Shown here piece after piece: positions 16,201 to 40,600 of a stretch of 64,000 nucleotides of DNA. The position numbers and the translations under genes are program-made. Position 1 is the stretch's first letter. Each line of letters opens with the position of its first letter. The notes beneath the pieces are model-generated. The model made no database searches and had not been told where the DNA came from. It saw nothing but the letters and a program-made list of their open reading frames with translations. Source of the stretch: Sipunculus nudus (lineage: Eukaryota; Annelida; Sipuncula; Golfingiida; Sipunculidae); contig CM049312.1 in NCBI GenBank assembly GCA_026874595.1, positions 66,184,929-66,248,928 on the forward strand, written 5' to 3'.

Positions 16201-17756
16201 ATGTACACTTACTCAGAAATGTTTGTTAAAATGAAATTTTGCTTTATTCTTTATTTTTATTTTGCTCTGATTATAAAACTTAGAGTTGTCCCGAGGTATA
16301 TAGTAAGTTTTATCATTTTGCTTAAATGTCATTTTAATATAAATTGTAAAACTGAATCGAAAAAAGGACGTTTGATGATACCAAGATATACTTGATATCC
16401 GTCCATCGCATTGCGCAAATAACCAAAGTTTAGTAGTTGATCTAGCTTTGTGTGTCCGGACATGACTTTTCAGGCCAATCCGGGCAAGGAAGAACCTACC
16501 ACATGTTAGACACTTCTAATCGATTATTGCTGTTTAGGTAGTTGCCATCCTCGCCTTGCGGACCTCACGTGTCCTCTTGGACTCCGCTAATCGTGCTATC
16601 CCAGCGTCTTCTGCACCTCTGTGTGCGGCTGCACGCCACGCCGTTCGATCATGCGCTTGACTTTTCCACGTTTCTGCGTTAATGAATAGTTTTTAGCTGA
16701 GCTATCGCTGAGCTATAGTCATGGTCCTTTGTCCGTCCGGCCGTAAACGGGGAACGTCTTGAAACCATTTAGCTATGAAGCCAAAATTTAGCATACAGTT
16801 AGAAAAGTCTCATACCATACAGGAAACTGGGGGAGATCCCCTGCTGTGACAGGTGTTCAGTTATTCTCATATCAAATCAACCCAGCCCCCATCCCCACCT
16901 AGTGTTATGCAGTATCTATGCCCCCCCCCCCCCCCCCCGGGGAGGCATGGTGTCTTCAGTGCCATCTTCTGTCGTCATTTGTCGACATCATCTGTAGGAT
17001 ATCTTGTGAACGCGATAATTTTAAAGGGCTGCATAGTTTCCTCCAAAATTTAAAATACTCATTGTTCATCCTAAAACCTTGGAAGAGTTCGAAATCCGGT
17101 GACCTTTTCATTTTCGAAGTCAAATATGCCTTAAATGAAATTCTTGTGAACCTCAAAACTTTGAAGTATTTTTCATTTTGTCTTCAAATTTGGTACACCA
17201 ATTGTTCCTACCAAGTTCTCGGAAGAGTTTAAAACCCGGTGACCTTTGCCAGGATCTTCAAGGTTAAATCTGCCGAATTATAGTTATTGTCATGTGCACG
17301 CGATAACTTTAGAAGGACTGCATATTTTCCTTCAAAATTTTAAAGAATTATTGTTCCTACCAAAATCTTTAAGGAATTCGAAATCCAGTGACTTTTACCC
17401 TGCTCATCAATGCAATTCTAGGATTAGTTTTACCCCAATAACATTTGAAGTACTGAAGATATTTTCTTTAAATTTGACACACCAGTTCTTTCTGCGAAAA
17501 TCTCATTGATGTTTGAAAAACGGAGACCTTGACCTTCACTGTCCAATCTGCGGAAATGTAGAATCATTGTTTTGAGATAGTGCATATTTCACCCCTGATG
17601 TTTTGAGATGGCCTATAGACCGGAGACATGTATCTGTTTTGCGCTGCGAAAACAAAGCCATTCTAATGGTAATTGTTTACTGTATTTCCTTAATTGTAAT
17701 GCTGGTTCCACTCAAAAATACACATTTTTTCTTGAAATAGTAATTCAAGGAGTTGA

Positions 17757-17787
<31 letters not shown>

Positions 17788-20700
17788 TGTGTTGAGGGAG
17801 GGGGACATGGAATGTAATGTTGTGGGACTATAGCATTCTTTAACAAGTGACCCATGGGTCATGACGCTCAGCTGACTGGGAAGAGATTTGCAAAAGGAAA
17901 TTTTATCATCTGAATGGTAGTATATACCCATTCAACTGAAGCATCAAACAGATTAACTTAACCAACAGGCTGAGATTGTGTCTGTATTAATATATCTAAA
18001 AATAGAAAAAAAAAAATTAAAAAAAAAATACAGGTGGCTCCACCAGTCTGCAGAAACTAATAAAAACACTTAATGTTCAATATCCATGCAAAGAAGCATG
18101 GTGGTCTCTGGATTAGTTGTTCAGATATTTCAGCTTTCGTATCAATTTTTCCATTATTCTGAGGGATACTTTGCAGTCCTATAGCTTGGAGGATATGGGT
18201 AACAGAGACCTAATTTCAGGTTTCCACAAACACTTTTCATGGGCCTCCTTGCATGACAAGAATGAAGATTCTAGGTCCAGTTGTTACAATTTGTACCCCG
18301 TTGACAGATAACCACATCTTTAAAGGTCTCAAAAATAAAGAAAAAAATTGGTAAAAATTTGAAAAAAAAAAATAGAGGTGGCGCACCCAGTCTGCTGAAA
18401 TTGATGGAACATGTCATGATCAATATGTATGCCAAAAATCATGAGCATCAGTGTTGTAGTTATTGAGATACTGGAGTTTTTGTATCAATTTTTCATTATT
18501 CTGGGGGGGGGGGGTTACTTTTTGAGCCATACAACTTAATGGATATGGGTAACGGAGACCTAATTTCAGGTTTCCATGGAGATTTTTCATGGGTCTCCCT
18601 GTGTGTAAAGAATGAAGATTCTAGTACCAATTGTTATGATATGTGCCCTGTTAACAGATGTTCATATCTTAAAAGGTCTCAAAAATTGAAAAAAAAATTC
18701 GTAAAAAATTGAAAAATAGAGGTGGCGCCACCAGTCTGCAGAAACTGATGAAACATCTCATGATCAATATGCATGCCAAAAATCATGACCATCAGTGATG
18801 TAGTTAATGAGATACTGAAGTTTTTGTTTGAAATTTTTCACTATTCTGGGGGGGGGTACTTTGGGGCCCCATAGCTAAAAGGATATGGGTAACAGAGACC
18901 TAATTTCTGGTTTCCATGGAGACTTTTCATGGACCTTTTAGAAAGTCAAGTTACAAGATTCTAGGTCCAACGGTTACGATTTGTGCCTGGTTAACGGACA
19001 GACAGACGGACAGACAGACAGACAGACAACAGACAAAGAGTGATCGCTATAGCTCAGCATGACTGAAAGTCAGCTGAGCTAAAAAATACAGGTGGCGCCA
19101 CCAGACTGCAGAAACTGATGAAACATTCCATGATCAATATCCATGAAAAGAATCATGGTGATCAATGCAAAAGTTGTTCAGATACTGGAGCTTTTGAATC
19201 AAATTTTCCATTATTCTGGGGGGTATTTCGGAGCCCCATAGCTCAGAGGTTATGGGTAACAGAGACTTAATTTCAGGTTTCCAAAGAGACTTTTCATGGG
19301 CCTCCCGGAATTTCAAGAGAGAAGATTCTAGGTCCAGTCATTACAATTTGTGCCCTGTTAACAGATGACCACATCTCAAGAGGTCTCAAAAATAAAGAAA
19401 AAAATTCGTAAAAATCGACAAAATATAGGTGGCGCCACCAGACTGCAGAAACTGATGAAACATTCCATGATCAATATCCATGCACAGAATCATGGTGATC
19501 AATGCAATAGTTGTTCAGATACTTGAGCTTTTGTATCATATTTTCCATTTTTCTTGGGGGGTACTTCGGAGCCCCATAGCTCAGAGGTTATGGGTAACAG
19601 AGACCTAATTTCAGGTTTCCAAGGAGATTTTTCATGGTACTCCCTGGATGTCAAGTTAGAAGATTCCAGGTCCAGTGGTTACGATTTGTGCCTGGTTAAC
19701 GGACAGACAGACGGACAGACGGACAGACAGACGGACAGACAGACAGACAGACAGACGGACGACGGACAAAGAGTGATCGCTATAGCTCAGATGACTTTCA
19801 GTCAGCTGAGCTAAAAATCAATTTTCCGATAAATAATTTTTGCAAATTAAAATATAACTATACCCATCAGTATGCATTAGTTGATAATATATGAGCCAAA
19901 TTATGTATAACTTTGTTTTACAAATTAAAAAATATATTTTTGTGATAAAAACTAAATACATTTATATCTAAAATGTAACAGTATCTAACAAAGTTGAGAT
20001 ATATGATGATGCAATTATAATTATAAATTAACTTTTATATTCAGACACATGTTATATTAGGAATATATAAAAATGACACACTTGAAGAAAAAATGTAATA
20101 ACAAAAAAGGATCTAGTGCAAACATTTGTTCATTATTTTTCTGCCTCGGCAGAATGGGATATAAAGTGATCAACTTTGTCTACCAGTTATATTATTTAAT
20201 AATATATTATATAAAGTTAGATCTAATAACACTAATGTGTAAACTGCTGAACTGTCAACAGTTTATCAAAAAGCAAACTGCTCCAGTTTCAACTTTAGGA
20301 AACACATGGTCAGGTCATAAAATATTTTTTGCAACAATTTCTTACTCATCAATACAAACTAATCATATGAACCAACCCTGGCCTTAATTACCTCTTCCTC
20401 TCAAACTTTATGTCCATTTGATATTATTTTAGATTTTTACCTTCAAGGTCAATTTCAGCTGAGCACAGGACCCATGGGTGCCTTGTTTTAGTGATTCTTT
20501 GAGACTGTCCTTGTAGCGCCTCCGCTGACCTCCGATGGATCAATTACCGGACAATTCTCAAGTCAAAAGTTGTTTGCGGAGTCTTGTGTCCCATCGAACC
20601 TGGGATCGATGCAAGATAGGGTAGATTGATGGGAAGTTGGCGCGTAATAGGACCTCAGAATCTGGAACTTTGTCTTGCAATCTAATGAGTATTGTTCATT

Positions 20701-23700
20701 AGTCGATGGAGTCAGGTCAGGTGACTCTGGTTCAGTTGTTTGGCTTATCGTGCATACACAGTCCATGTCTCGCAGCCATACAGCAGGGTTTAGATGACAA
20801 CTGCCTTGTAGACCTGGATCTTGGTTTCAATAAAGATGCCTCTACGCTCCTAGACGTTGGGGCGGGGTCTTCCAAAAGCAATGCTGGCTTTTGCTACTGG
20901 GCTATTGACCACGTCATCTATGTTTGCTCTCTGTAACAATGTGCTCCCCAGATAAGTGAATTTGTCAACCACCTACAGATTTGATCCATGCACCACGATG
21001 GAGGGTTCTTCCTATTGCTCTCCTGGTGCTTGTTGGTGCATCACGTCAGTCTTCTTTATGCTGTTGGTAAGCCCAAATTTGTCACCTGCACGGGAATATT
21101 GGTCCATGTTGTGCTACATGTCTGATATTTAAAATGCAACAAGGCGCAGTCGTCAGCGAAGCGTAGGTCACGGATGATGGTTGTTCTGACTTTCGTGACA
21201 GCATCCAACCTTCTGCGAATAAGGAGTCCCCATCTGCGCGGTGTCTAACCCCGTAATGTGTGTAATGGTATCTAACACCGACTCCAGGATCATCCTTGTT
21301 AAAAGTATCCACTATCACGGCAGAAAACATCAGGCTGAACAGTGTTAGAGGGAGAAGGCAGCATTGTTTTACGCTGTTGCTTTTTGTGAAGTCGGAAGAT
21401 GCCTCACCCTCATAGAGGACGTTAACATGCCATCGTGAAACTGGCGGATGATGGTGATGAACCGATCAGGACATCCAAACATTGACCATTATCGTCCAGA
21501 GTCCGTCACGGCTGACAGTGTAGAATGCCTTTGGTAGGCCGACAGATGTGGTTTACAGGCCCTGGTATTGTCTTTGGCATTTCTCATGGAGTTGATGAGC
21601 GGCAAAGATTATGTCAACTGTACCACGACCAGCACGAAAACTGCATTGATTCTTTGGTAGAATACCGTCTTCCATGTGTACAATGAGGCGATTAAGGAGC
21701 AGTCTACCAAGGCTCTTTCAGGTAATGCTGAGCAAATAAAGCCCTCTATGGTTGTCACAGCTCTGTTTCCTTTGCGCTTGTGTAGGTGGACAATGGAAGC
21801 GTCTTTAAATTATTGTGGCAGTGTAATTTTCTCCCAAAAGGACAGGAACAACTCATTGATTTTCTGTGTCAGTTTGGGTCCGCCGGCCTTGTATATCTCA
21901 ACAAGAATTGCATCAGAGCTCTGGGCTTTACCACATGAGAGCTGTTTGATGGCCTGCTCCAATTCTTTGACAGAAGGCATGTTGTCGAGAGCATCGTTGA
22001 TTTCTACTTTCGGAAGGCGAGCTATAGCATCGTCATTGACGGAAGAGGGACGATTCAGAATGGACTTGAAGTCCTCTGCCCGCGGCCCAGGATCTTACCA
22101 CGGTCAGTGATCCAGGCCAATCCATCAGTACTCAGGAAATGAGATGTGCCAGAAAACTGCCGTCTATGCACAGTTTTAAGAGCGTAATATAATCTTTTGG
22201 AATCATGCATATCCATGTATCTCTGGATCTCAGCTGATTTGTCTCATAGCAAGGTATTGTGCATGTTGAGCAGGTTAGTCTGGACCAAACGGCGGATGTT
22301 TGTAAAGGCCGCTTTCTGTGAGGTTTAGGTGGTGTCCTCTTGGTACACAAGATGAAGCCTGTTTGAGGAGCTTTTGTATCTGGTCATCGTTCTTATCAAA
22401 CCTGTCCTAGTGCCTCTTAGTTGTTTGTCCAAGGACATACAACGAGTCGGAGTGGACTACAGCAAATGCTGGCCGTCATCCTCGACATCTAACTTGTCAG
22501 AGTTATATACATACCATTTTGTGAATAGGCAGCAGTCACCGAATCTTTCCGCCGCCTATATCCCAATTTATGTTCATTTCCATGCCACCATTTTAGTGGT
22601 ACAAATTTTATAATAATTTAGGCCTTTCTAATGAATTGATAAAGATATATTCCCTTTCTTATCGTCGTTTAGAACTTAAGCCTTCGTTTATAGAAGAAAG
22701 CATGTCATATGAGGGATCTGTCTAATCAATCCAGGTCATTATAATTTGATAAGTGAATATCTTTTCAACAGTCTCCGTAATATTTCCTTTTATAACTCAC
22801 TAGTTCCCATATTTTTCTATATTATTTGTATTTTGTTCTAATTTTTGTTCTTAATTTATTCAAGTCCTCGGCTTTATTCGTAGGTTAATTAAATACCTAA
22901 CGTGTGTATTTTCCCTTTTTCAGCGTGAGTCTTCACCATTCTATTGTATGAGCAAAGCTGCTGTTGCAATGTTTACGAGATGCCTCTCCAATGGTACGGG
23001 AATCCTCTTTTTCTGCAGTAAAAGGGATAGCATAACAGTAATACATTATACATGTGATCATAACAAAAAAAATGATAATAATTGTGCATGTATTCAGTAT
23101 TTCGGTATTAATAGTTAAATCAAAACTAATTGTTAAAGAAAAGATATAAAAAAGGTTTATCAATTATTTTCATTATTGGAAATATTGAATACATCTAACT
23201 TTATGAGAATTTTTTTTTTTTTTGGCAATTTATTTTATTTTACTAATGCTCAAATAATGAATACCTCTATCTTTTTTAGAAGTAATTTAACGCACCTGAT
23301 ATTTCTTATTTGAGATTTTTTTGTAATTCTCCTCAGCGATTGGATGTCTCTTTGACAAATAGGTTTTCATTTAATTTTGGAAATCACCCGTATCCAGATG
23401 GACATGCAGGTTTATTTTATTATATTCGTTCGTCTCCCTATACAAAATATCCGAATAAGTCTTAAATAAATTTCATTCACGTTATGTGGAGAGGGATATC
23501 TTTTAGATGTCATACTTATCTGTACATGTATATTTAGAATCATATTTGCCTGTTACAATCGGATTTTATTAACTAATATCGAATAGACGTAAACACTAGC
23601 ATGTTCTATTAAGCATTTTATTCAAATTACTGCATAGTATGGTCACGCAGTCACCTTGACCATAATTTGTTTACAGAACTCGGTCCGCATGGTGTACGAG

Positions 23701-24064
23701 TTAATGCTGTAAAGTAAGTATATAATGAACTGCTATGGAGAGAGAAATAACAGTTGAATATGTAACTCAATATAGCTACTTTATTTTCTCATAGCTCCTT
23801 AAGATTTTAGCTATACTCTATTGGCTTTGCTGTTCTACTGTTTATTTCATAAATTTACCACAGTGGAAACATTTATAGATAAGGAAGTAAAGGAACCAGT
23901 TTTACGATACAGAACTCCATAATAAACCAGGACTGTCAATTTCGATATTTTTTTCTTTGATTACTCTCAACCACCATAACCAATTCCCAGGATCAATTGC
24001 TAGGTAAAGTTTTCGGCAAATCAGATTCATATTGCTGACAAAGCTGTGATCATTTGAATTGGTG

Positions 24065-24115
<51 letters not shown>

Positions 24116-24524
24116 CATTCATTCATTCAACAGTCCTGGAGCTGTAGAAACAAATATCTATGAAAACACAGGAAATACAAAAGACGAGTATTTAAAGGTA
24201 AGTATACCATCTGTTTAAAGATTCTCTGATTTAAAAATTCTCCGTAAGAAATGAAACGTTTAGTAATTTGAAATATCTTTTTTTTTTTTCTTGGAAACAG
24301 TCCTATTGACAGAAAAGAGAGTTATCTGACATCTTAAGTTCCTTTTAATATCTTTTTTACAGATGTTGAATCGCTGGAAAGAAAAAGTGCCTTTAAGGAT
24401 GATGGGATCGGTTGAGGATGTGGTCCATGCTATCGAGTATTTTTCGTCGGATCAGGCTCGATTCATTACCGGAACGTCAATCAACATTGACGGGGGCGGG
24501 GCTAATAAGATGGAGTCCCCGTAA
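10562..24524 (+). CDS. Classical short-chain dehydrogenase/reductase (SDR), complete, nine exons
   Basis: Exons: 10562-10595, 12156-12295, 13445-13537, 14614-14752, 15306-15346, 22924-22993, 23677-23713, 24134-24197 and 24363-24524. All introns are GT..AG, all phases match, and the total is 780 nt (259 aa plus stop), the usual size of a classical SDR. Visible motifs: cofactor loop TGAGSGIG (residues 11-18, split by intron 1); Asp36 after beta-2, which favours NAD(H) over NADP(H); VNSAG (90-94); catalytic Asn116 in TNVKA, Ser143 in VGSIA, and Tyr156/Lys160 in YCMSK; NPGAVET (185-191) in the cofactor and substrate loop; C-terminal TGTSINIDGG. No signal peptide is visible. The family reversibly oxidises alcohols or reduces carbonyls with NAD(P); it is probably a soluble FabG-like oxidoreductase, and the substrate cannot be read from sequence. 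The start is the ATG of a 12-codon opening exon beginning MAGVRKVALIT. Intron 5 (7.6 kb) is filled with nested transposons. An ATTAAA at about 24654 is a possible polyadenylation signal. Confidence 0.93.
10871..11089. mobile_element. Fold-back element with CCCGGGACCA arms
   Basis: Arm 1 (10871-10932) and arm 2 (11036-11089) are inverted relatives. Each has TTTTTGG, CCGAG, ACGAGAA and CCCGGGACCAA in mirrored order. Two extra CCCGGGACCAA blocks lie upstream at about 10696-10717. It is non-coding. Confidence 0.6.
11429..11781. mobile_element. Possible hAT-like non-autonomous element
   Basis: The left edge CAGGAGCGGATCA (11429) and right edge GGATGCGCCCCTG (ending 11781) are inverted relatives of CAGGGGCGGATCC-type ends. 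The interior holds (GC)/(GT) repeats, a 13-G run and a (TA)n array. No target duplication was found. Confidence 0.35.
11560..11627. repeat. (TA)n microsatellite
   Basis: About 68 bp of pure TA dinucleotide within SDR intron 1. Confidence 0.95.
11932..12007. repeat. (TA)n microsatellite
   Basis: About 75 bp of TA dinucleotide 150 bp before SDR exon 2. The YIYIYI reading frames across it are artefacts. Confidence 0.95.
12296..13444 (+). other. SDR intron 2 (contents)
   Basis: Unique AT-rich sequence plus an interrupted (TA)n array at 13131-13204. The donor is gtgag and the acceptor is atttgtag. Confidence 0.8.
13131..13204. repeat. (TA)n microsatellite, one interruption
   Basis: A TA dinucleotide run broken once by a TTA in the middle. 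Confidence 0.95.
13538..14613 (+). other. SDR intron 3 (contents)
   Basis: No repeat family or gene was recognised. The donor is gtaac and the acceptor is gtgttccag. Confidence 0.7.
16445..16690 (-). pseudogene. Detached 3' end of the same LINE ORF, with C2H2 finger
   Basis: Minus-strand translation reads INAETWKSQAHDRTAWRAAA, then ARLAESKRTREVRKAR, a stop, and after a shift CLTCGRFFLARIGLKSHVRT-H. This is the C-x2-C...H-x3-H finger that ends this LINE family's protein. It is exactly the segment missing after GGQRRRYKDSLKESLK at 20487, so the two pieces were contiguous before element 16691-20486 inserted. Confidence 0.85.
16960..17560. repeat. Tandem repeat core, about 142 bp, four diverged copies
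   Basis: The block 'gaagagttcgaaatccggtg' followed by accttt recurs at about 17082, 17221, 17371 and 17508. 'gaacgcgataa' and 'catattttcc' blocks keep the same spacing. No coding potential is conserved across copies. Confidence 0.75.
17756..17791. repeat. (GT)n microsatellite
   Basis: About 36 bp of GT dinucleotide with one TT interruption. Confidence 0.9.
17843..19816 (+). mobile_element. Complete terminus-family element with 345-bp core repeats
   Basis: The left terminus is ACAAG-TGACCCATGGGTCA at 17843-17861, followed by tgacgctcagctga. The right terminus at about 19762-19816 reads gacaaagagtgatcgctata, then gctcagatgactttcagt and cagctgagctaaaa. Between them are five tandem units of 339-371 bp. 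Just inside the right end is a (CAGA/CGGA)n tract (19700-19757). There is no open reading frame of family type, so it is non-autonomous. Confidence 0.8.
18031..19770 (+). repeat. Tandem array of about 345-bp units, five copies
   Basis: Units start at GGTGGCGCCACC-type palindromes at about 18032, 18375, 18719, 19090 and 19429. Each contains 'gatcaatatccatgc', a poly-G stretch before 'tacttcggagccccatag', 'atgggtaacagagacctaat' and 'gacttttcatgg'. Some units end in a short cggacagacaga tract. Confidence 0.9.
19817..20454. other. Interior of the outer terminus-family element, AT-rich
   Basis: This stretch lies between the nested element and the left terminus at 20455-20486. No repeat unit or gene was recognised. 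Confidence 0.5.
20487..22490 (-). pseudogene. Non-LTR retrotransposon (LINE) reverse-transcriptase relic, main part
   Basis: Minus-strand frames, broken by several shifts and stops, show in order: a linker with DWFDKNDDQIQKLL (about 22440) and the DSKRLYYALK region (about 22200); fingers with PSVKELEQAIKQL (about 21980); HLHKRKGNRAVTTIEG; a CSFRAGRGTVDIIFAA palm motif (about 21630); a LTLFSLMFSAV block (about 21310); and near the 3' side QDKVPDSEVLLRA and GGQRRRYKDSLKESLK (about 20500). This order is that of the LINE polymerase family often misannotated as 'craniofacial development protein 2-like'. The catalytic FADD region is decayed. The frame stops at a 3.8-kb insertion and resumes at 16690. 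Confidence 0.85.
24066..24113. repeat. (TA)n microsatellite next to the SDR exon 8 acceptor
   Basis: About 48 bp of TA lie only 20 bp before exon 8 (24134), inside the polypyrimidine/branch-point region of intron 7. Confidence 0.95.
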
Positions 24525-25810
24525 TGTCCTACCGCTTGGTGGGTGATTATTAACCTACTGGACCTTATTGACAGTCAGCTCATTAGCGAAATAGTCCATA
24601 TTGCGGAAACACGTGCAAATAATCTTGTGCAAAGATAAATTATATAAATGATGAATTAAAAATAGAAAGAAACTATTCAGCTTCCGAAGGTGATCTCACA
24701 GATAGATGGTAGATTTATAGTGCCACATAATGTGTGGCAGACTGTTTTCTGTGCCCGCGACTTATCGGTGATAGAAAATTGCAAGGAGTTAAGGGACCGG
24801 GAGACCGCCTTCAAATATTAAAAAAAATAACGCATAAAAATACAGCAATTCGTTGAGGTGGCTACGCTCATCCAAATCAAAGTATGGTTCAGTCTTGATG
24901 GCTATAATGTTATGCTCTGTACCATGTGTGGTACGGTACAATTTGTAAAGATATGATGATTGTCCTCCAAGCGTATTTCACTCAAATGTTTATTGTCTTT
25001 ATCTTCTTTACTAAGTTATCTCGCTTCGGTTCTTTTACATTTCGGTTATTTGTGAATGTATGACATAGCTGCCATAACTGAAATGAGAGAGTTGGCGCCA
25101 CCTCTCTTCAACGATTTCTGGTAACAAGACTTGTAATTTCCGTTTTCCGCCAGATAAGTCAGGAAATAAGATTACTTTGGCCTTCACATCAAATGCAAGG
25201 ATTCCTTGGGGAAAACATGAACACTAAATTGAATGGCATTATTTTCAAAATGATGTTTCAACATGACTTTGAATTTTGCTGACTAAGAAATTTGATTATT
25301 TAACAAATATGGTGCAAAACCTGCTACCTTTTTATCTGAGGTGCCATTTCACCTGCCATCACAAATTTTGACAGACGTGTTTGATCATGCGACTTCTATG
25401 TGGTTTCACCTGCAGATGACACCACCAGTGGTGACTTACTTTCTTTGAGGTGAAATGATGTATTCAGCTTATTCATGAATTAGAATATATTGAAATTTAA
25501 GATTTGCTATTATATTAAAATGCTACACATTCCTAATTACACACATAGCGGCGCACTGATTGTGTCTCTAGGCCCTTGTTTATTATTAAATTGACTCTCA
25601 TATCTTTTCACATTTAAGTCATTTTTTCATCTGTCTTTGGTGTGGTATAATACAAACTTGATGGTAAGATTGCATGTGTATTCAGTTTTCAATAATATAA
25701 TTCATAGAACTTAGCAAATGGATGGTTCTCCCTGCTACAACCATTGCATATTGTCAGTCTGTAATGTTGTCATTTAATGACCGAAATGTCAAAATATATG
25801 TAACAACAAT
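24525..25810. other. SDR 3' flank and intergenic region
   Basis: It includes the probable 3' UTR (ATTAAA at about 24654). After that it is AT-rich unique sequence without a recognised gene. Confidence 0.5.
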
Positions 25811-25819
25811 TATCAGACT

Positions 25820-26173
25820 CTAATACGAGTTTCCAGAAACATTGTATATGAAGAGGTAACTCTCTCTCTTGAATTCATATGAAAATAAGAAATCCATAAT
25901 CATATGTTCCAATGTTAATGAGATTGCTGAAAGTGTAATATTAGTGGGATATACTGGAAAAAATATATGTGCAGAGAGACTATTTAAATGCCGGTTGAAT
26001 TCTCTGGCGAGGTCAGCGGGCTTGGTACCCATGTAAAGTCTTGCAAGGATCAACAGCTTGTCCACAACTGACAGGACATGGCACTTGCGTGTATCCATTG
26101 ACGAGTACGATTTAATAGGATGTAAAAAATCACGTGGAGAATAATCAGGATGAGCAGTAAATCGTGTTGACAT
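25820..26173 (-). pseudogene. Pogo transposase N-terminal HTH fragment
   Basis: 117 codons; residues about 32-60 resemble the pogo/CENP-B psq-type helix-turn-helix (L-x2-DKL-IL-R...-G-x4-LAREF). The C-terminal half has no family resemblance, so the fragment is truncated and fused to flanking sequence. Confidence 0.6.
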
Positions 26174-26791: not shown

Positions 26792-26799
26792 TAATGCAT

Positions 26800-29414: not shown

Positions 29415-29465
<51 letters not shown>
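29415..29465. repeat. (TA)n microsatellite
   Basis: Pure TA immediately after the element end at 29414. Confidence 0.95.
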
Positions 29466-29467
<2 letters not shown>

Positions 29468-29812: not shown

Positions 29813-30165
29813 CAGTGGTCATTTTATATTTCATGTATTGGCTTCTTTTGAGGGATGCAAATAGTTTTTTTCCTTCTCCAGGGAGCCCCATTTTCACTGA
29901 GTTGTAAGGACTTAATAAGAATCCTCTATAATTGAACACAGATGCCACCTGTAGTGATAATTGTAAACTACTAGAACTGACCATGGCAGTGGTCATTTTA
30001 TATTTCATGTATTGGCTTCTTTTGAGGGATGCAAATAGTTTTTTTTTCCTTCTCCAGGGAGCCCCATTTTCACTGAGTTGTAAGGACTTAATAAGAATCC
30101 TCTATAATTGAACACAGATGCCACCTATAGTGATAATTGTAAACTACTAGAACTGACCATGGCAG
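29813..30165 (+). repeat. Recent direct tandem duplication, 174-bp unit, two copies
   Basis: Copy 1 starts at 29813 and copy 2 at 29987 (cagtggtcattttatatttc). They differ only by the length of a T run and one base (cacctgtag versus cacctatag). Near identity implies a recent event. Confidence 0.95.
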
Positions 30166-30169
30166 CTGG

Positions 30170-31150
30170 ACACTTGGCCAACATAGAAACAATATACGGA
30201 TTGCTTATACTTAATTTTGGGTATATTTATGTATATATCAGAACCAGGTATTCGCCCTTTTTTGTAATGTTCAATCGGGCATATGAGACTATGAGACTTC
30301 ATATTTGTGAACATTCTTGGATCGGGACCATGAGCTGGAGCCCCGCCAAAATCTAATCAGTTTTTCATTGTATCATTCTCAAGGTGACCTGAAGATTTCA
30401 TGGGACACCGTTCAGGACTGCGGGAGTACGTTGTGAACAAAACACACAAACACACACCAAAAAATGCGATTGAACGCATAGCTTCCTGGCGGAGACAATG
30501 AATAACAATTTTTCCCTGATTTCAGGTGTATATATACATGATATTGTCTCTTACCGTTAAACGAAGATATGAATGCGAAAAAAAATTCTGTAAAAAAAGG
30601 ATTCCTTCCGGACATCAGCTTCTTAGTATACTAAATCAAACTCAAAATTCTTGCAACGAGTCGGAAATTTATTTAGAAATTTGGCTAATGATGATTCGTA
30701 TTTACAAATATTGTTGTAGCTAGACAGAGCTAAGATTTTAGAGAACCGCAAGTGCCTGGTTTAGAACAGTTTTGTGTTCTCTTTCAGCTCTTTTACTGTA
30801 AAATAGATTTTAAAAATTTTATCAGGTATATAATGTTTTAGGTTTTTTTTTGTAAATACAGTTAATGTATTGTAATATTTTGCGATTTATGTTTGAACCT
30901 TCAATGTGCAAAAAATACACTTATAATGCTGTATATAACAAGCATCAGTGTTTAGCTCAGACAGAGAAAAATGACAAGAAATGATAGTAGGTAAAGCCAA
31001 AGAACATTCCTTGCTTGATTGCTTTTGAAGGAATTAAAATTTCACCAGCATGTGGTTGCACGTCAGCATGGTTTTGACAGTATTTGTTTAATGCAGCAAT
31101 CCGATCCTAGTTATATACAAGCCTCTCAAGAGCATAGATTCGAACAAGTA
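30170..31150. other. Intergenic, no feature recognised
   Basis: AT-rich unique sequence. Short open frames show no family resemblance. Confidence 0.5.
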
Positions 31151-31156
31151 CTGACT

Positions 31157-32450
31157 TTAAGCTCAGCTGACTGTAAGCGTTCCCCTTTTCCGTCTTCCGT
31201 CCGGATGTCTGGCCCTCCATCCATTACCAGGGTACCAATCGTAAACGTTAGACCTAAAAATTTCTTGACGTACATCCAGGGAGGTACTAGGCAAATCTAA
31301 AAAATCTTTAGGCCTAAAACATGATTTTTATCATTTTGGCAGTCAATCGGTGCTCATATTGTATCCATGATGCTTCGAATCCGCTAATGTTACATTCTGA
31401 AAGGGCCTGGGTAACGCTCCTTAGGAACCTAAAATTAGTTTGGGCGGTCTGTATACTGCGATCTTCTGACCAAAAACATGATTTGAAGATTCCAAACAAG
31501 GCACAAACTGTATCCATTAGGCCTAGAACTTCTAGTGTAACATTATAGGAGGTCCACGGCAAATGTCCTAGGAAACATGAAATCAGGTCACCGTGACCTA
31601 TATTCTGAGACATATATGTAAAATATATTAAATCGTATCTGTTAGGTTTAGAATCGTCTTACGCAATCATCCAGGGAGGTTCTGGGCAAATCACCGGGGA
31701 AACCTAAAATTAATTCATGGTGACCTATATTCTTAGAACTATCGACCAAAACCTTGATTTTAAACACCTAGAGAGGGGACAAATTGTATAGGGTTTCCTT
31801 GGAATCTTATAACAATTCATCCAGGGAAGTCTTGGGCAAATCTACTTGGAAACATGAAATTAGGTCATTGTGACCTATATTCTACGAGCTGCTGGCAAAC
31901 AACAGCCTTCTGAGCACTCATACAGTCACACAGGGCGCTAAACTTAACTGTTTGACCTAGAACCTTGTATTGTAAAATTCAGGGAGGGTCTTGACAAGTC
32001 TCCTTTTGTACCTCGAAATTACGCCTTTGTGACATAAATTCTGTGAGTTATAGGGGAAAACATGATTTAAGTACTATCAGATGGAAAAAAATCTTAATGC
32101 TTGGACATAGAACCCTTAACTTAAAACTCGAGGAGGTGTTAGGCACATCTCCTTCAGCACCTGAGATAAGCGCATAATGCACTATATTCTGTGATGTATG
32201 AGCCTGTTTTTAAAACCGAGAAAGTCAGACGTGGCCATAGTCTGAAATGTTAGATCGAGATACGTTATTATAATGTCTCCTTGGACTTAAAGATAACTAT
32301 ATTCTGTGAGTTATCTGATAGAACATGATTTTAGCATCCCATTAATAATCGCACACAAATCGTAGCATTTGGAAATAGAATTTAGTATCTAGAAAGTTCG
32401 AGTCGCTAATGAAGTCTTTTTATCCATAGTTCAAGTTTCCTCAACAAATA
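31157..32450 (-). mobile_element. Terminus-family element, right end plus about 150-bp core repeats
   Basis: A right terminus in minus orientation (ttaagctcagctgactgtaa, then the ttccgtcttccgtccgg tract) lies at 31157-31204. It is followed by diverged tandem units with 'ggtcaccgtgacctatattc'-type blocks near 31592, 31720, 31870 and 32029. Each unit also has 'gggaggt-ttgggcaaatct' and 'ttggaaacatgaaatta'. No left terminus was found before 32500, so the element is incomplete. Confidence 0.55.
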
Positions 32451-32527
32451 TTTTTTTATCAGATCATACCTCACCGTGGATACGTTGCATTGTAACCAAC
32501 ACATGAATTGGCAAAAAGTCACATAAT

Positions 32528-32529
<2 letters not shown>

Positions 32530-32561
<32 letters not shown>
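32530..32561. repeat. (TA)n microsatellite
   Basis: 32 bp of TA followed by a poly-C run at 32574-32587. Confidence 0.9.
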
Positions 32562-32563
<2 letters not shown>

Positions 32564-32639
32564 CATACAAATACCCCCCCCCCCCCCGGGCAGCAACCAG
32601 TACTCACCGTCCTTTCGGAATTTCACTGTATCTCAACCA

Positions 32640-32646
<7 letters not shown>

Positions 32647-32699
<53 letters not shown>
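32647..32699. repeat. (TA)n microsatellite
   Basis: About 53 bp of TA dinucleotide. Confidence 0.95.
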
Positions 32700-32702
<3 letters not shown>

Positions 32703-32720
32703 TTAAATTGCCTTTGCTAT

Positions 32721-33443
32721 CAGTTGCGGATCCAGAGGGGGCGTCTTCGGTGCGCGGCCCCACGTTTAGTTGCAAAAACTCTCATTTTATCTAATTTCCC
32801 AATTTTCGTGATTAATTTTCGTTTTTCATATTTCTTTTTATTAATCAGCAGTTTATTACTTTCAAATTTATTGTTTGAGTATAGGGATATTTATGAACAG
32901 CTGCAGAACAACAGGCCGTGGTTGGGGTCGACCGTGAACAATTAATTTCACGGCTCCTCTGGTGATACCGGTACTCGAAATCGCGATCTGTGATCAAAGT
33001 TTAACATAAGAATACAACATTTTTGTTATTTCATTCCGAGCAATACATTTAAAAGATAATATTTTGCAAATTAAGAACGTAAATGCGCCTTTGCGCCATT
33101 GACTTTTTTTTAAACGATTGAAATTTTATATCCTAATTTGACGTAATATAAATATTAAATATTGAACCTCTCTACAGTTTGACTACATAACACAAAGACA
33201 TGACGGAACAATGTTCAAGAACAGGAAATTCTCATATTATGGTGAAAATTGCCTTAAAATGTCCTCTTTATATTGCATATTAAAAAAAAATCCAAATATG
33301 ATACTCCCTCCCATACCCTCCCTATATACCTGTAACTAACCTTAATGGAACCATGTTCATAATTGAAAATAAAGAAAAATGGTATTTTCATACACTAAAA
33401 TATATAACATATAGTATAATAATAATAAAATATAAAATTATTA

Positions 33444-33480
<37 letters not shown>

Positions 33481-33576
33481 CATACATATACACGTATATA
33501 AAACAGTTTTCATTGTACCCATGCATAGGTGCATAATAGCCCCCCCCCCCCCGTTTTCGAATTTCTGGATCCGCCA
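32721..33576. mobile_element. Possible hAT-like element pair of ends
   Basis: The left edge is CAGTTGCGGATCCAGAGGGGG (first 20 bases count) at 32721. The right edge is inverted, TCTGGATCCGCCA, ending about 33576 after a C run. The interior is AT-rich with (ATT)n and no transposase. No target duplication was seen, so pairing of the ends is uncertain. Confidence 0.3.
33437..33478. repeat. (ATT)n microsatellite
   Basis: About 40 bp of ATT/TTA trinucleotide. Confidence 0.9.
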
Positions 33577-33689
33577 ATAATTATGGCCCCCTCCCCTCCC
33601 TCAGTCCTGGCTACGCCCCAGCGTGGTATAAACAGAACTAACCAAAGACCGATCAAGCGTTAATTTAATAGAATTTTGTAAACCTCCAA

Positions 33690-33691
33690 TG

Positions 33692-33723
<32 letters not shown>

Positions 33724-33725
33724 TC
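33690..33725. repeat. (CT)n microsatellite
   Basis: CT dinucleotide with one GT interruption. Confidence 0.9.
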
Positions 33726-33729
33726 CTCA

Positions 33730-35980
33730 ACTCAGGATATCAGTTGTCCAGGGATACCTAAATATACTTTTTTTTCACTTTCTCTTTCTCATGCACGCAT
33801 GCACATTTATAAAAAAATATATAAAAAATTCGGTATGCATTACAGGAGTATGTCTTTGAACACATAAATCATCTTGATACCACAGTGTTCAAACGGATAA
33901 ATCCCGTACACGTACACATATTCAACCAAAAACATTCCCAGTGTCTAACAGTTGAAAGGATAAGAAATTCCATGATGAGTACTTCAGCTGCCCTGTCTTG
34001 GGCTTGTCGTACGACCGGCGGGTCTCTTGGGTGTAAGGCCCTGTCACATTGCTGGCCGCAGAACTTGTTTGTACATAACTCCACTGCACATGCATTAACT
34101 TATTTATTAATGTATCAACATTTTCTTTAAAAAAACGGCTGGTTTTACTAATATATTTTTGTATTGATTTGTTTTATATGATAAATTACATTATTAAAAT
34201 AAATGTTTACAGGTTTTATATGATTGCGCAACCTTAACCACGTTTTTACTGTTTTAGCTATAACTTCAGAAGACATTTTTACCAAATACTCTTTGAACAT
34301 GATGCATGAATAAAAATTGAATATTCTTGCACTGGCTGATAACATAACCAAAGAAGTATTTTTTATTTAGTATTTCATTACACTGGAATGACTTTCGATT
34401 TTAATAAGTGAAAAAACACGAAAACAGTTTTGACCTGTTGTCACTTATGTCTAGCCCGGAAGGACTGTCGTAACAATTAAAAAATGGAAATGCAGCAGAG
34501 GCGAATCAAGAGGGGGAGCTTTGGGGGCTGAAGCTCCCCCCCCCCCCGCCCCCTTACAGGGTGAAACATTGTTATCATATTTTATCAGAGAAGATTTTCT
34601 TTACATTATTTCAGTTGCCGTCATACAAATATCACCCTTTCAACTGAAACATAAAAGTTGAAAACCCAAGGAATCGTTAGGAGAGGCGCATGTCTACACC
34701 AGGATCAGGCATCTTTTTATACCCCCGCCGTTAAGTGAGAGGACTACTAAACTGGTCCGCGTCTGTCAGTCCCTCCGTCCTTTCGTCCGTCTGTCCTTCA
34801 ATCCGTCCGTCCGTCCCGCACCATCACTGATGCCACACTTTCCTGGTTAACATATCGCCATTGACCATTATGGCCCTAGGTCCTTTTGTATTTTTAAATA
34901 ATTAATTTGGCATTTTCCAACATTGGTTATAGACGTCAAAATTTTCGAATTACAAAATCTTTTATCCGTGGCTCCCTCGAGCATTTCTTATGCAATGCTC
35001 CAGCTGTCCTTGGGCTTGCTTGTGAACATGATTAAGCGTTTAAATAAAAAGCAAGCCTTTTTCACCTCTCTTTATCCTAGAAATAAAAATCATTTTCTAT
35101 TTTTAACAAAACGCCAATACATTATCATTACATTAAAAAAAACAATGTCTGAATATACTTACATCATAGCATTTGATTTTTATGATAGGCAATGGATATT
35201 TACTGCCTCGTCATAAATAACATGTATGGGGACTTGGATTTTGGTTGTATATATCAGTTGGAATTCTCAATGGGGAATCTGTTTTGAAAATATTTGTTCT
35301 TGTCGCCCTTTAAAAGAAAAAAAAATGTACAAAACAGTACAAGAAACTGACAAGATTTAATACCTTTAGGATCCTTTTATAGTGAAGATTTACTATCGAT
35401 TACAAATGTATAAATTACCAAATAAATATGGAAATGATAGTACATAAATATACGAACGAAATAAATGCATTTTATACTTTAGACGTATTTATATAAACGA
35501 GATCTGACGTTTGAACGTATAAAAGCAAGTTATAGACTAAAGAAGCAAATAACTGCGCATATGGAAAAGTAATTTAAGCTATACCAGTTAATCAAAATGA
35601 ACGCTAGTGATTAATATCTTGAAAGAGTAGTAAGAGAATGATATTCAATCCTGAGTTATTCGTTTGCCTTTTTCAATGATTCTTGGTTCACTTTAATGTT
35701 TATATGTATTTGTGTCTTTATTTTATGACTGATCAATTATTTGAGATTAAATGATGAATGAATTGTTTACATCGTTGGGCATTTGTGCTCACATCTCATG
35801 TTCAAACCTAAACGACAAATTAAAAAGAGATTATTAATATACCCAAGTCTTATTTTCATTTTAAAATCGGTTGATAGAAAAAAATAATGTCCAAATCATT
35901 TATGCTTTTGCTATGAATTCCCATTCTTAATATAAACTTATTTATTTTACATGACTGTACTAATAGTTATTATAACTAAT
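33730..35980. other. Intergenic region, no gene
   Basis: It contains a GC-richer patch at 33990-34075 of unknown nature and a G/C-run repeat fragment at 34493-34560 (gcgaatcaagaggggg). An interspersed repeat start at 34723-34830 (tatacccccgccgttaagtg, then a (GTCCGTCC)n-like tract) precedes unique AT-rich DNA. Confidence 0.45.
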
Positions 35981-35989
35981 CGAAGCACT

Positions 35990-36170
35990 CTCCATGGCTC
36001 CGGTGATGGCGTTCTATAGTCTGCAGTGGTGGAGGAAACCGGAGTGCCTTGAGAAAACCACCGGCCTTGGACGGGCAACTGCAACCCACTCTCATAGCCA
36101 CGCCGGGGATCGAACCAGGGTCGCTAGCGGAGAGAGCCAAGAGTTTTACCACTCAGCTGTTCAGGCCCCG
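35990..36170 (-). mobile_element. tRNA-derived SINE
   Basis: On the minus strand a tRNA-like head carries an A box CAGCTGAGTGG (36159-36149) and a perfect B box GGTTCGATCCC (36116-36106) about 33 bp apart. It is followed by a conserved-looking body with GGTGGTTTTCTCAAGGCACT and CCGGTTTCCTCCACCAC. Such a 'TTTTCTC..CTCCGGTTTCCTCC' block is, to my knowledge, a shared central domain in several invertebrate SINEs. No A-rich tail is obvious. Confidence 0.75.
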
Positions 36171-37081
36171 CTGCTTGCTCCAGAAGAGTCTTGATTTGCA
36201 GAGTAAATGAATCCTCTGCGAAGCAAGGTTTATCACGTAATTATCGACGTTGGTTGATTCGTCTTTTAGCAGCTGTACCCAACAGTTATAGACGGACTTA
36301 TGAGGAGACCCAGAAAAAAAACATCCAAAATAATTTAGAGTGTACCTGGATACCAATAATATTTTCATTTAAAATATGCTTAACTGCTGTTGAAAAAAAA
36401 GGCGAGCAAAAGACCGGTTTTGGGATTTGGTTTAAGGGGAATCTTTAATTGAATTTAAATTCACGAAAGAGGCGAGCAGACCGGGTAGCAAAATCGAGTT
36501 GAACTTGTCACACATTCCACATTTAAAAATAAAAAAAATCGCGCTACAAACTGTAAATATAAAAATAAACATAATATGATTTGTCTGAATTTAATGTCTG
36601 CATTTACGTTTTATCTCAACTTTGTTCATGAGTTTTCAGTTGTAAAGTATGTCTCGGGGAAAATATAATAAATTGCACATCTGTACCCATTCATTCATAT
36701 TCACAATTTACAAATTGTCAGATCGTATATGAAGTGGAAAAATGCAAAAGGTGTATTTTGATATCAATATCCGTGCAGTCATGTTTTGTTAGTTTGTAGT
36801 CTGCAAATTATATAATGTTAAACTGAAACTAAGACTACATTTTTATAAAAATTTAATGTGGTAGTGGCTATCTATTATCTCTTCCTCTCATTCATCAATA
36901 AAAGTTGATTTTTTTTGTAAAATCATTATTCTGAAGTTCAAGAAAGGAAAAAGGGAGTTTTTCGTTTTTTAAAACGGCTTAGATTTATGTTTTTTTTTAT
37001 AGGTATAAAGTGACTTAAATTCATTTAACGTATCCAACGTTTCACTTATTATAACCTTTTGAACATCAGAAGTTTACACTG

Positions 37082-37083
<2 letters not shown>

Positions 37084-37135
<52 letters not shown>
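37084..37135. repeat. (TA)n microsatellite
   Basis: About 50 bp of TA dinucleotide. Confidence 0.95.
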
Positions 37136-37139
<4 letters not shown>

Positions 37140-37202
37140 TTATTTATGTATATATATAGATAGATAGAAAAAAAAGGTAAATATCTATGGCAAGTGTCTG
37201 CG

Positions 37203-37204
<2 letters not shown>

Positions 37205-37247
<43 letters not shown>
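37205..37247. repeat. (TA)n microsatellite
   Basis: About 43 bp of TA dinucleotide. Confidence 0.95.
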
Positions 37248-37252
<5 letters not shown>

Positions 37253-37276
37253 GTGATTATGCAAAGTATTTACTAG

Positions 37277-37310
37277 CCTCCCCCCTTTCAAAATCCTGGA
37301 TCCGCCCCTG
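37277..37310. mobile_element. hAT-like terminus (single end)
   Basis: Read on the minus strand from 37310: CAGGGGCGGATCCAGGATTT then TGAAAGGGGGG, the canonical form of this invertebrate end. No partner end was found nearby. It lies 80 bp from the stop codon of the NTF2-like gene, probably in its 3' UTR. Confidence 0.5.
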
Positions 37311-37392
37311 ATGCAATAGGATTTTAATCGCTGCTGTACATGTTTGCCCTTTCCAAATTAATCTTTCACCGGTCCTGTATGTAATAAAGCCT

Positions 37393-37551
37393 TTAGTGGC
37401 CTTCGTTGAACATTTCAAGGACCAACAGCCATTCTTTTCTCTGTTCATCTTTCTTCCAAACCATAACACTCCTGAAATTAAGAAAAGATCATACACGATC
37501 ATACTTTTTAAAATTCTTTTACTACTTTTAATGAGATTACGGAATACTATC

Positions 37552-37619
<68 letters not shown>

Positions 37620-40600
37620 TGCTTGGCTTAAACATATAGGTGGTTTTAACACTCACTTTCCACGCATGGAAACCTTCCCCTCCGAATCGTAGAGGTTGAA
37701 CCTGTGCCAGCTGTGAGCGCTCTTTCCGTCATTAAGTACCTCGATCTCTGGCTCATAGAAGTCAAAGTCCGCCATTTTATCAGCGTCATAATATTTCTTT
37801 ATGACCTTAGAGATATTGTCTTGAAACGAGAAAAACGTTTTGAAGCATTATTTTATCTCTTCGTCAAGTGTACTGTAAAAATAACGAAATAGGCACTAAT
37901 GTTATGCGCAAAAGTCGATCTCACACATCAGTATATAGCTAGCTATCAATTCAATTAAGAATGCATCCTATAGACTACAATTTTATATAATTGTTATATT
38001 TTTATAATTGTTATAATTGTTATTTGTTATAATTATTACTGTTGGAACAAGATTTAATGAACCATTATTTGGTGGAGATGATATGGTATGACATAACAGT
38101 TATTCAATTCAATAATATATTTGATAAAAGTTTACATGTACGATTTATTTAGCTGACGATGTGCTGACTTCGATATATTGTTTATTCTTTTCTATTTCCA
38201 AGCTTCAGCGATAACTTTTTCCCCTGCCAAGGTATATCCGCACAGTTAAAAATGTTATATATATGAAGTGACCATGCAGAGTTCAAAACTTGAAAACTGG
38301 AAACAAGGAGATAGACAAGACACACACAAGATTGATTATGTTCAGGAAAAAAGTATTGAGTACCTGTGATACATGGTACTTGCGTTTAAAATTCAACTAG
38401 TGGCCCATAGGCCATGACACCTAGCTGAATTCAAGGAATGTTAAACAATGAGAAAGATGACTGCCAGATTGCAAAAAAAAAAAACTATGAATTTTGTGAA
38501 GAGCCCTTAGAGATGTCTGGTTTACGAGAAAACTCTCCAAGACAGAATGACAAGCCAAATTTCAGACCAATTCCTTGAACCACTATTGGGATATGAGCAA
38601 TTTTCACCCAAACCACATGTGTGGATAGATACCACGGGAAAACTATGATGGCACCACCAGTCTTGAGTGCAAGCTGAAGGAGTCAAAGATCTATGAGTAA
38701 GCACAAATTCAAGCAAATAGAGCAAGTCACTCCTGAGAAAAGGGCATTTATGTATTCTACAAACCGGGAAATTAGGTGGCGCCTCCTGTCTGTTTACCAG
38801 AAAACTTTCTAAGATGGAGGGACATGCCAAATTTCAGACCAATATCTTGAACCATTCTTGAAATATGAGTAATTTTCACCAAAAGCTAATATACCGATGA
38901 ACGCCATGCGAAAGTGGCTACAGACGGCGCCACCAGTCTTGTTTACATGATGTAGGTGTTGAGGATCTATGAATATGCATAATTTCAACCCATTACATTG
39001 AAGAACCACTAAGACGAACAGATGGCAAATGCACAGATGGACACTACACAAAAAGTATTGTAGGTGGCGCCACCAGTCGCAGTTATGAGATGGAGAGATC
39101 CAAGATCTATAAACATGCAAACTTTCAGCACAATACATTCAGACACTCCTGAGATATGGGCTGTTATCTAAAAGACACCCAGATTCATACTGCACAGAAA
39201 AGATTGCTGAGGGTGCCATCTGTCTTTGTTAGGCACAACAACATAGGGAACAGCTAAGCTAGGTTTCGGAAAGATCAGTCCAAGGGTCTCAGAGGAGTTG
39301 TCATGAAACTAACGCAGAGTTTTGGTATCACATTTTTAATTATTCTAAAATCTATTATCTATTAAAATCCCAATAGCTTGATGGATATGGGTAACAGAGA
39401 CCTAATATTTCCACGGAGACTTTTCATGGACCTCCTTTGATGTCAAGTAAGAAGTTTCCAGGTCAAGCGGTTACGATTTGTGTCCTGTTAACAGATGACA
39501 GCTTCTTTGAAGGTTAAAAAATTATAGAAAAAAATCGTAAAAATTAGAAAAATACAGGTGGCGCCACAAGTTTGCAGGAAGTGATTGAATATTCCACGAT
39601 CAATATCCATGCAAAGAATCATGCTGATTAATGCATTAGATTTTCAGATACTTGAGCTTTTGTATCAAAATTTCATTATTCTGGGGGGGGGGGGAACTTC
39701 GGAGGCCCATAGCTCAAAGGTTATGGGTAACAGAGACCAAAATTCAGGTTTCTACTAGCTAAGAGGTTATGGGTATTAGAGACCTAATTTCAGGTTTCCA
39801 AGGAGATTTTTCATGGACCTCACTGGATGTCAAGAAAAAGATTCGAGAACCAGAGGTTATGATTTGTGTCCTGTTAACAGATGACAGCTTCTTTGAAGGT
39901 ATAAAAAAAAGAGAAAAAAATCGTAAAAATTAGAAAAATACAGGTGGCGCCACCAGATTGCAGGACCTGACGGAACAATAATCATGATCAATAATCATGC
40001 AAGGAATCATGGTGATCAAGGCAGTAGTTATTCAGATACTGTAGCTTTTGTATCAATTTTTTTTATTATTCTTTGGGGGGGGGGGGGTAATTACGAGAAC
40101 GATAGCTCGGAGAATATGGGTAACAGACACTTAATTTCAGGTTTCCAAGGAGAATTTTCATGGACCTCCATGTATGTCAAGTTAGAAGATTCTAGGTCCA
40201 GGAGTTACGATTTGTGCCCTGTTAACGGACGGCCAGACGGACGGACGACGGACAAAGAGTTATCGCTATAGCTCAGATGACTTTCAGTTAGCTGAGCTAA
40301 ATTTGAAGAAACCTTGTAGCTTGTTAGGAATTGTGACAAAAACATTCATTATTTCATGGATGATGTAAAAGTGTTTCTTCAGCTGGACCCAAACTACTGT
40401 ATTGGATGGCGGTAATGATAGGCAAAGTCTATTGAAATGACCATGGAAACAAGTATACAATATTATTAAAATTTCGATCCAATCTAAAAATAGAATTGTA
40501 AAAAATTCATCCATCGAAAGGATTAGATATAATAAAATGAGTGCATGAGGCATCATCATTTAGATAATTAATTAAGATATATGGTTGACCGAAAATAAAA

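Follow-up and report, generated by a model that had tools for sequence, protein, structure and literature searches.

HINEs, the non-autonomous counterparts of Helentrons, have a published plan with subterminal inverted repeats (subTIRs) and a 3' palindrome (PMC4067079; PMC7492417). In the Pacific oyster, Cg_HINE is described in PMC7492417 as having a 5' subTIR, an inverted repeat and a GTCC-type microsatellite, followed by a short array resembling satellite DNA and by a 3' subTIR with a palindrome. Insertion is into T-rich sequence without target site duplication, the arrays lie in one orientation, related flanks may surround unrelated repeats (group 2), and one element may hold two arrays. 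The same features recur in a 64-kb stretch of the Sipunculus nudus genome (C7:66184929-66248928, hereafter the window), which probably contains seven copies or relics of one HINE family; this judgement also takes in mobilisation in trans, the history of the cores and nesting. Two differences from the oyster stand out. The double array of one element here resolves into a single lineage of repeat units, termed A/B, and a Helentron with nearly the same 3' terminus has been identified, whereas according to PMC7492417 none of 10 autonomous oyster elements could be related to the HINEs.

The HINEs and Helentrons of mite, mosquito and Drosophila (PMC4067079) also have palindromic subTIRs, a 3' palindrome, a T-rich target and an autonomous partner with Rep/helicase and a C-terminal endonuclease. 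Unlike those elements, the ones described here have long satellite-like arrays as cores, and the 5' end of their partner is missing. By description, the family can be likened to the pearl elements of bivalves (CvA, CvE, CvG together with DTC84 and MgE, as cited in PMC7492417 and PMC11136912), in which constant flanks enclose central repeats of ~160 bp. Helitron-associated satellites are reported in bivalves (PMC11136912; PMC5139131; PMC12628747), as are shuffled loci in oyster (PMC12628747), and composite rolling-circle transposition is mentioned as a possibility for HINEs in PMC4067079. The family is therefore of a known kind, and what is added here is the A/B resolution of a double array, a matching Helentron 3' end and a set of nesting junctions. 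The entry and spread of satellite repeats with Helentrons, and the origin of two-array elements, were left open by the oyster work. With its thousands of copies, its Helentron of near-identical 3' terminus, an element in which two 5' ends accompany a single 3' end, and nesting junctions that can be read, the present genome allows capture, re-amplification, recombination and nesting to be tested by counting.

The elements of the window, E1 to E7, are as follows, with A, B, B', C and D denoting repeat units of their cores.

1150..1182, plus strand: 3' end of E1, with subTIR, 14-bp palindrome and CTTGT, then T (32/33 ungapped; 33.4 bits when left out of the profile)
1..578, plus strand: core of E1, an array of C units of ~143-146 bp with a GGTCAAAGGTCAAGGTCA stretch (first two units from Tandem Repeats Finder (TRF); C profile)
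8504..9292, minus strand: E2, from profile scans; 5' end 9292-9271, one B unit 9247-9102, 3' end 8536-8504
8972-8926 and 8914-8609, minus strand: inner parts of E2, a weak microsatellite remnant (7.5-16.6 bits depending on the model) and C units
17843..19816, minus strand: E3; 5' end X (19816), A-B-A-B, 5' end Y (19084), A-B-A-B-A-B, tail, single 3' end 17875-17843
19004..19084, minus strand: second, internal 5' end Y of E3 (67.1 bits by profile, 47.3 left out), directly after GGTGGCGCCACCTGTATTTTTT of a B unit
38396..40302, minus strand: E4; 5' end, A-B-A-B-A, five B' units (39200-38501), 3' end
16691..17842, plus strand: left part of E5; 5' end 16691-16754 (15.3 bits left out), D array at about 17000-17600 with units of ~140 bp
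19817..20486, plus strand: right part of E5; decayed piece of a Helentron endonuclease at about 20199-20370, then 3' end 20454-20486
31156..32411, plus strand: E6; 5' end (11.3 bits left out) and A-only array of ~145-150-bp units, with no 3' end found
52111..52231, minus strand: E7, a solo 5' end with subTIR, partial inverted repeat, microsatellite and start of A (66.0 bits; 43.5 left out)

Both types of terminus are real and stand above resampled sequence, although some copies are weak when left out of the model. The palindromic terminus, 33 nt long, was scored without gaps along the window and along 30 Markov-resampled windows, where the maximum was 22; it reaches 33/33 at 17843, 32/33 at 1150, 27/33 at 8504 and 26/33 at 38396. 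A 1-nt indel leaves the fifth copy, at 20455, with an ungapped score of just 19, below that maximum, but a profile scan gives it 29.0 bits against a resampled maximum of 8.8 (20 windows), and 18.2 bits when it is left out of its own profile. Leave-one-out profiles recover all five palindromic ends at 12.7-34.6 bits (resampled maxima 7.6-8.7), E4 being the weakest at 12.7, and all seven ends of the other kind. Four of these seven are strong (E3X 63.5, E3Y 47.3, E4 66.6 and E7 43.5 bits; resampled maximum for E3Y 12.3), while E5, E6 and E2 are weak at 15.3, 11.3 and 9.9 bits, with resampled maxima of 7.7, 8.4 and 7.6 respectively.

An earlier note on this DNA had listed five 'left' and six 'right' termini. 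All five of the former are real; all six of the latter are present too, but a seventh, at 19084, had been missed. The polarity has to be reversed, in that the 'right' terminus, with subTIR, inverted repeat and GTCC microsatellite, is the 5' end of the HINE plan and the 'left' one, with subTIR, palindrome, CTWGT and a T next, is the 3' end. Complete 5'-to-3' pairs run from 9292 to 8504, from 19816 to 17843, from 40302 to 38396 and, with an insertion inside, from 16691 to 20486. Window scans found no matching 3' end for the 5' ends at 31156 and 52231, and the 3' end at 1150-1182 has its 5' end outside the window. E7 is truncated after about 115 bp, the start of its A unit lying at 52160-52117.

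In the genome as a whole (1.4265 Gb in 153 contigs), CATGACGCTCAGCTGA occurs exactly 4,311 + 4,274 = 8,585 times, and its reversed control not at all. Exact-match searches of viral contigs and of bacterial and archaeal genome contigs returned nothing, as expected for an animal repeat. The window itself is eukaryotic in character, since it has no open reading frame of 150 aa or more starting with ATG, GTG or TTG, the ten frames scanned for domains include one retroelement RNase H and one PAN, and fragments resembling long interspersed elements are visible by eye. Its longest listed stop-to-stop frame is 182 aa.

Read in the HINE direction, an element starts with a T-run containing GCTCAGCTGAC (the 5' subTIR), followed by the complementary arm GTCATCTGAGC, by CTATAGCGATNACTCTTTGTCC, by a GTCC/GTCTG microsatellite and by GTTAAC and the core. 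At its other end come TCAGCTGAGC, a palindrome (in the best copies TGACCCATGGGTCA) and CTWGT, with T next. The subterminal inverted repeats are thus GCTCAGCTGAC at the 5' end and TCAGCTGAGC at the 3' end, with mismatches in some copies. The inverted repeat and microsatellite behind the 5' subTIR are complete in E3X, E3Y and E4 and partial in E5 and E7, while the inverted repeat is missing from E2 and E6, so that three to five of the seven 5' ends have this feature. When folded, the 5' arms give hairpins (-10.6 and -12.6 kcal/mol) far more stable than those of shuffles (z -4.6 and -4.9). Comparison of the 5' ends of E3 at 19084 and 19816 shows an inversion of the hairpin tip (GACTGAAAGTC against GACTTTCAGTC); because the second form recurs in another copy, L001, the inversion looks like a subfamily trait. 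At the other end, the palindrome is present in all five window copies, being shorter in E2 and E5, and 90% of 30 cells are paired across the five sequences. Two of its six pairs are changed on both sides, in one sequence each; these two values, for pairing and for paired changes, are reached by 8/500 and 36/500 shuffles.

The base that follows the 3' end is T in 5/5 window copies and in 8/8 loci fetched from elsewhere in the genome, two of which (L006 and L007) have a common flank, leaving at most seven independent sites. The features of a canonical Helitron (5' TC, 3' CTRR, insertion between A and T) are absent, the 3' end being CTWGT then T and the 5' end lying within a T-run. A short non-coding element with inverted terminal motifs could also be a miniature inverted-repeat element of a cut-and-paste (DDE) transposon. 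This is very improbable given the asymmetric subterminal repeats, the 3' palindrome and the insertion between Ts, together with the lack of a target duplication in the four flank pairs of window elements inspected by eye (0/4) and the existence of a Rep-helicase relative whose 3' end is nearly identical; a DDE partner was not searched for.

That relative was found among the Helentrons of the same genome. Helitron_like_N (PF14214) has at least 143 matches in the genome and none in 14 control genomes. Eleven Rep stretches comprise two (L009 and L010) that resemble canonical Helitrons and nine with SAAD, SAAE or SSAD at the corresponding place, as labelled by eye. Copies termed group 2 (L036, L038 and C7:71189229), a group with members at C7:71.18 Mb and C3:10.57 Mb, encode Helitron_like_N, a PIF1 helicase and Exo_endo_phos_2, and at C7:71189229 the frame through the Rep domain is open over 1,658 aa. 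In all three copies examined, the HINE 3' terminus stands after the group-2 gene end in the same orientation (31.1, 31.1 and 29.6 bits). Two of these copies, L046 and L051, represent one duplicated insertion, as their flanking DNA is common, so that there are two independent insertions among the three. The remaining copy, L052, is an independent insertion; it is 96.9% homologous to L046 up to the 3' terminus, where the homology ends. It interrupts a B unit of an E3-like HINE, with the tail and 3' end of that HINE coming after it, whereas in E3 this stretch is uninterrupted. By eye, the group-2 terminus is identical to that of E3 at 30/33 bases. The Helentron-like mobility proposed in the earlier note is to this extent supported. 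The note had asked for an autonomous copy encoding Rep-helicase; the group-2 copies have nearly the same 3' terminus, and their 5' end was not reached.

A trace of the same Helentron group is present in the window. Positions 20061-20384, just before the 3' end of E5, encode a decayed piece of the group-2 endonuclease (blastp E 3e-13 in a single comparison; blastn 81.7% over 82 bp), which was not detected by Pfam alone. As this piece directly precedes its 3' end, E5 is best read as a Helentron relic, into which E3 would have inserted, to judge only from their order and orientation. A crude motif scan of the window gave no Rep-motif-2, Walker A or GDFN-like match among the matches listed; the 23 HxHxxxW-like matches listed lie mostly in short frames and are taken as chance. 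Helentrons of another group, group 1 (L011-L032, L037 and L047), have frames of up to 2,426 aa (L020), with PIF1 and endonuclease domains in the C-terminal part of L047. Around the Rep domain, pairs of group-1 copies reach 98.7-99.9% identity over 2.5-3.6 kb, which suggests recent activity or duplication, and no HINE-family termini were found in the parts of their flanks that were fetched.

Between their common ends, the elements carry different arrays. E6 is made of A only, E3 of AB, E4 of ABABA then B', E2 of B then C, E1 of C and E5 of D. The arrays of the unit sizes given in the earlier note are present in the window, although the ~140-bp array at 17.0-17.6 kb is not listed by TRF. The cores are nevertheless less interchangeable than had been claimed, because the 345-bp unit is A plus B, the array at 31 kb is A only and the second array in E4 consists of units related to B. 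A starts from GTTAAC and measures ~133 bp, while B, of ~152 bp, finishes with GGTGGCGCCACC. When profiles of both were run on the window and on 20 resampled windows, the A profile recovered all eight A units of E3 and E4 and gave eight matches in the E6 array, from 31224 to 32411, at 58 down to 10 bits (resampled maximum 8.0). A reciprocal profile built from the E6 array finds the A units of E3 and E4 at 53-80 bits. The B profile recovers the units of E3, E4 and E2, and in the B' array of E4 it matches the 3' halves (positions 75-146) of four of the five units at 22.6, 10.4, 9.8 and 8.9 bits (resampled maximum 8.7), three of these matches being marginal singly. Conversely, a B' profile scores between 18.8 and 10.1 bits on five B units of E3 and E4, the other two of the seven falling below its resampled maximum of 7.1, and gives additional matches of 15.4 bits at 54235 and 9.8 bits at 22144. 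On B' units of the fetched loci, the B profile reaches 12.8-17.5 bits. The proposal that E4 joins two unrelated cores is accordingly rejected on these reciprocal profiles and fetched loci: two arrays do stand in one element at 38396-40301, but the second is B-related.

The four or five cores of the earlier note thus reduce, by profile similarity, to one A/B lineage plus C plus D. One family of ends does enclose different cores, whereas the 345-bp, 150-bp and '270-300 bp' arrays belong to a single lineage; C and D look unrelated to A/B, and the pairwise comparisons made gave no mutual similarity among A, B, C, D and a 148-bp unit, S, found elsewhere in the window. The distinctness of C and D would suit a capture of foreign satellite DNA as filler, which is one of the two scenarios for HINEs in PMC7492417 and is here regarded as a possible but rather doubtful source of these two cores. 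The C profile scores 67.1, 17.2 and 11.3 bits on the units of E2 and also matches a ~48-bp stretch at four places beside S arrays at 25 bits.

The history of the arrays was followed with eight further copies, L001-L008. These head the list of places with the 3' motif and all come from the beginning of contig C1, so they are a non-random draw. All eight have A, B or B' units upstream of the motif in the same orientation, and one has C too. In trees built from 27 A and 20 B units, the units seem to group according to their position. For the B unit nearest the 3' end, the mean identity across seven copies is 93.4% (21 pairs, minimum 86.1), or 92.6% if L007, which probably duplicates L006, is left out. 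Likewise chosen after the tree, five last A units average 90.3% among themselves compared with 71.9% to other A units. As the last B unit appears to be one shared unit in seven of ten copies, the arrays in those copies may be taken as inherited.

The nesting of elements is recorded in junctions. In 21 exact cases genome-wide, the end of a 3' terminus is followed after 8-38 bases by GTTAACAGGGCAC, while the control search gave none. The intervening bases mostly resemble the T-rich spacer that normally lies between B and A, and a T follows the terminus in 20/21. Ten of the 21 join at one point of the spacer, after a long T-run, and the rest elsewhere. The gap limit of 38 is filled in ten of the 21, so that longer joints were missed. 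Repeated junctions could in part be copies of one older joint. Among the eight fetched loci, three (L002, L003 and L004/L054) have stacked 3' ends separated by array units, without any 5' end detected in between, and one (L001) has stacked 5' ends. Elements of this family do, then, nest in the T-rich spacer of one another's arrays.

E3 shows the 5' side of such a joint, a B unit and T-run followed by a second 5' end, together with a single 3' end. Several 5' ends with one 3' end is a pattern credited to Xiong et al. 2016 for plant Helitrons (in PMC12628747), and it is what would be expected if the 3' terminator were lost or bypassed on a circular template, giving tandem truncated copies, with arrays growing this way in each copy; terminator bypass is discussed for HINEs in PMC4067079, and some neighbouring B units within copies are 88-92% identical. 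Such rolling-circle re-amplification nonetheless seems unlikely. Part X of E3 is 89.9% identical to part Y over the 5' modules, 85.7% over the first A and 75.0% over the first B, and to E4 it is 91.0, 85.7 and 78.3% identical over the same parts; X is also about 80% identical to the last two units of Y and 81% identical to E4 over 504 bp. As X is no closer to Y than to E4, a recent in-place rolling-circle dimer is rejected for E3, and the multimer in general, the main rival for this element, is disfavoured by these identities. One last B unit common to 7/10 copies also speaks against re-amplification, and stacked 3' ends without a 5' end between them would not be predicted by it.

Recombination between neighbouring or nested elements or arrays could also swap cores behind common ends, with no composite transposition. 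E2 (5'-B-C-3') and L001 (5'-A-C-3') look chimeric, and recombination is proposed for double arrays in the C. gigas paper (PMC7492417). Any breakpoint with two-sided homology is hypothetical, and the internal microsatellite of E2, a weak candidate for a 5' remnant, would fit a nested element instead. This route is accordingly thought somewhat unlikely.

Composite formation through nesting would fit these data best, as part of a likely wider scheme. HINEs with a 5' subTIR, inverted repeat and GTCC microsatellite, a tandem core, and a 3' subTIR, palindrome and CTWGT, inserted next to Ts, would presumably be moved in trans by the Rep-helicase-endonuclease Helentron with nearly the same 3' terminus. 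Much of the core variety would be one lineage, (AB)n then B', passed on with the element in most of the copies seen and altered by local gain and loss of units. The mixing of cores probably begins with insertion into the T-rich spacer of another element's array, as in the junctions above. If rolling-circle copying then ran from the outer 5' end as far as the first 3' terminator, the product would be a composite, 5'X-core-5'Y-core-3'Y, such as E3. The C and D cores would have been added to the family in an event that these data do not show.

Several observations weigh against this scheme. No remainder of the outer element X follows E3, and composite transposition accounts for this by inference only; the X-Y identities, while they disfavour a recent in-place duplication, are no proof of nesting. 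As regards the Helentron, some group-2 frames are broken, with a stop in L046 and two overlapping frames in L052, and group 2 may stand to the HINEs as a sister and not as their direct partner, its 3' end differing from that of E3 at 3/33 bases. The 5' end of group 2 was not found in the upstream DNA obtained, so that sharing is seen for the 3' end alone; the 5' end would lie further out, as homology between copies reaches the outer edge of L053. The 3' palindrome, folded as a short hairpin in four copies, does no better than shuffles. The link between B and B' within the window is modest. Finally, the seven-copy set of last B units was picked after the tree was seen, and under a strict rule ten copies have such a unit, three of which (E2, E4 and L003) fall outside the shared group. 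Over all ten, last B units average 82.5% (45 pairs), barely above the within-copy mean of 79.8% (22 pairs). As these two means are so close and some within-copy pairs are highly similar (92.4, 89.0, 88.5 and 88.2% for the closest), local re-amplification appears to happen as well, and the view that the arrays are inherited and not re-amplified is weakened. We read the data as a shared array inherited in most copies plus local duplication of neighbouring units, with which re-amplification is compatible. The suggestion that the element captures or re-amplifies tandem DNA is on this evidence partly upheld, by the similar within-copy B pairs, and partly countered by the inherited last B unit of the seven copies.

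A more specific idea, held tentatively and rated somewhat short of even, is that the poly-T spacer of the arrays serves as a landing pad for the family itself, and that nested pairs become new single elements when copying runs from the outermost 5' end up to the first 3' terminator. If so, the arrays of HINEs would be a built-in device for making composites and swapping satellite cores, which would explain the origin of double-array HINEs. In the literature searched, mostly at the level of title listings, no description was found of a family that uses array spacers as landing sites for its own members.

Other repeats of the window touch on the same elements. A large block at 42587-51352 consists of 148-bp S units in higher-order repeats with periods of 2.4 kb (92%), 1 kb (95-96%) and 0.7 kb (97%). 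Because S units with the same orientation occur on the 3' side of the gene near two copies of group-1 Helentrons (C13: L040 and L048; C4: L042), and weakly in a third (L044), the block could represent the tail of a further Helentron family, with S as a putative part of the element. Weak A-, B'- and 3'-end-like matches of up to 18.3 bits at 54083-54684 may mark a decayed further copy, and a microsatellite-bearing start at 34715-34890 (ACCCCCGCCGTTAAGTG..., GTCC repeats) may belong to a different HINE family. A weak subTIR-like string is visible by eye inside E4. The AGGTCAAAGGTCA of the C unit has what we take to be a resemblance to a nuclear-receptor DR1 site.

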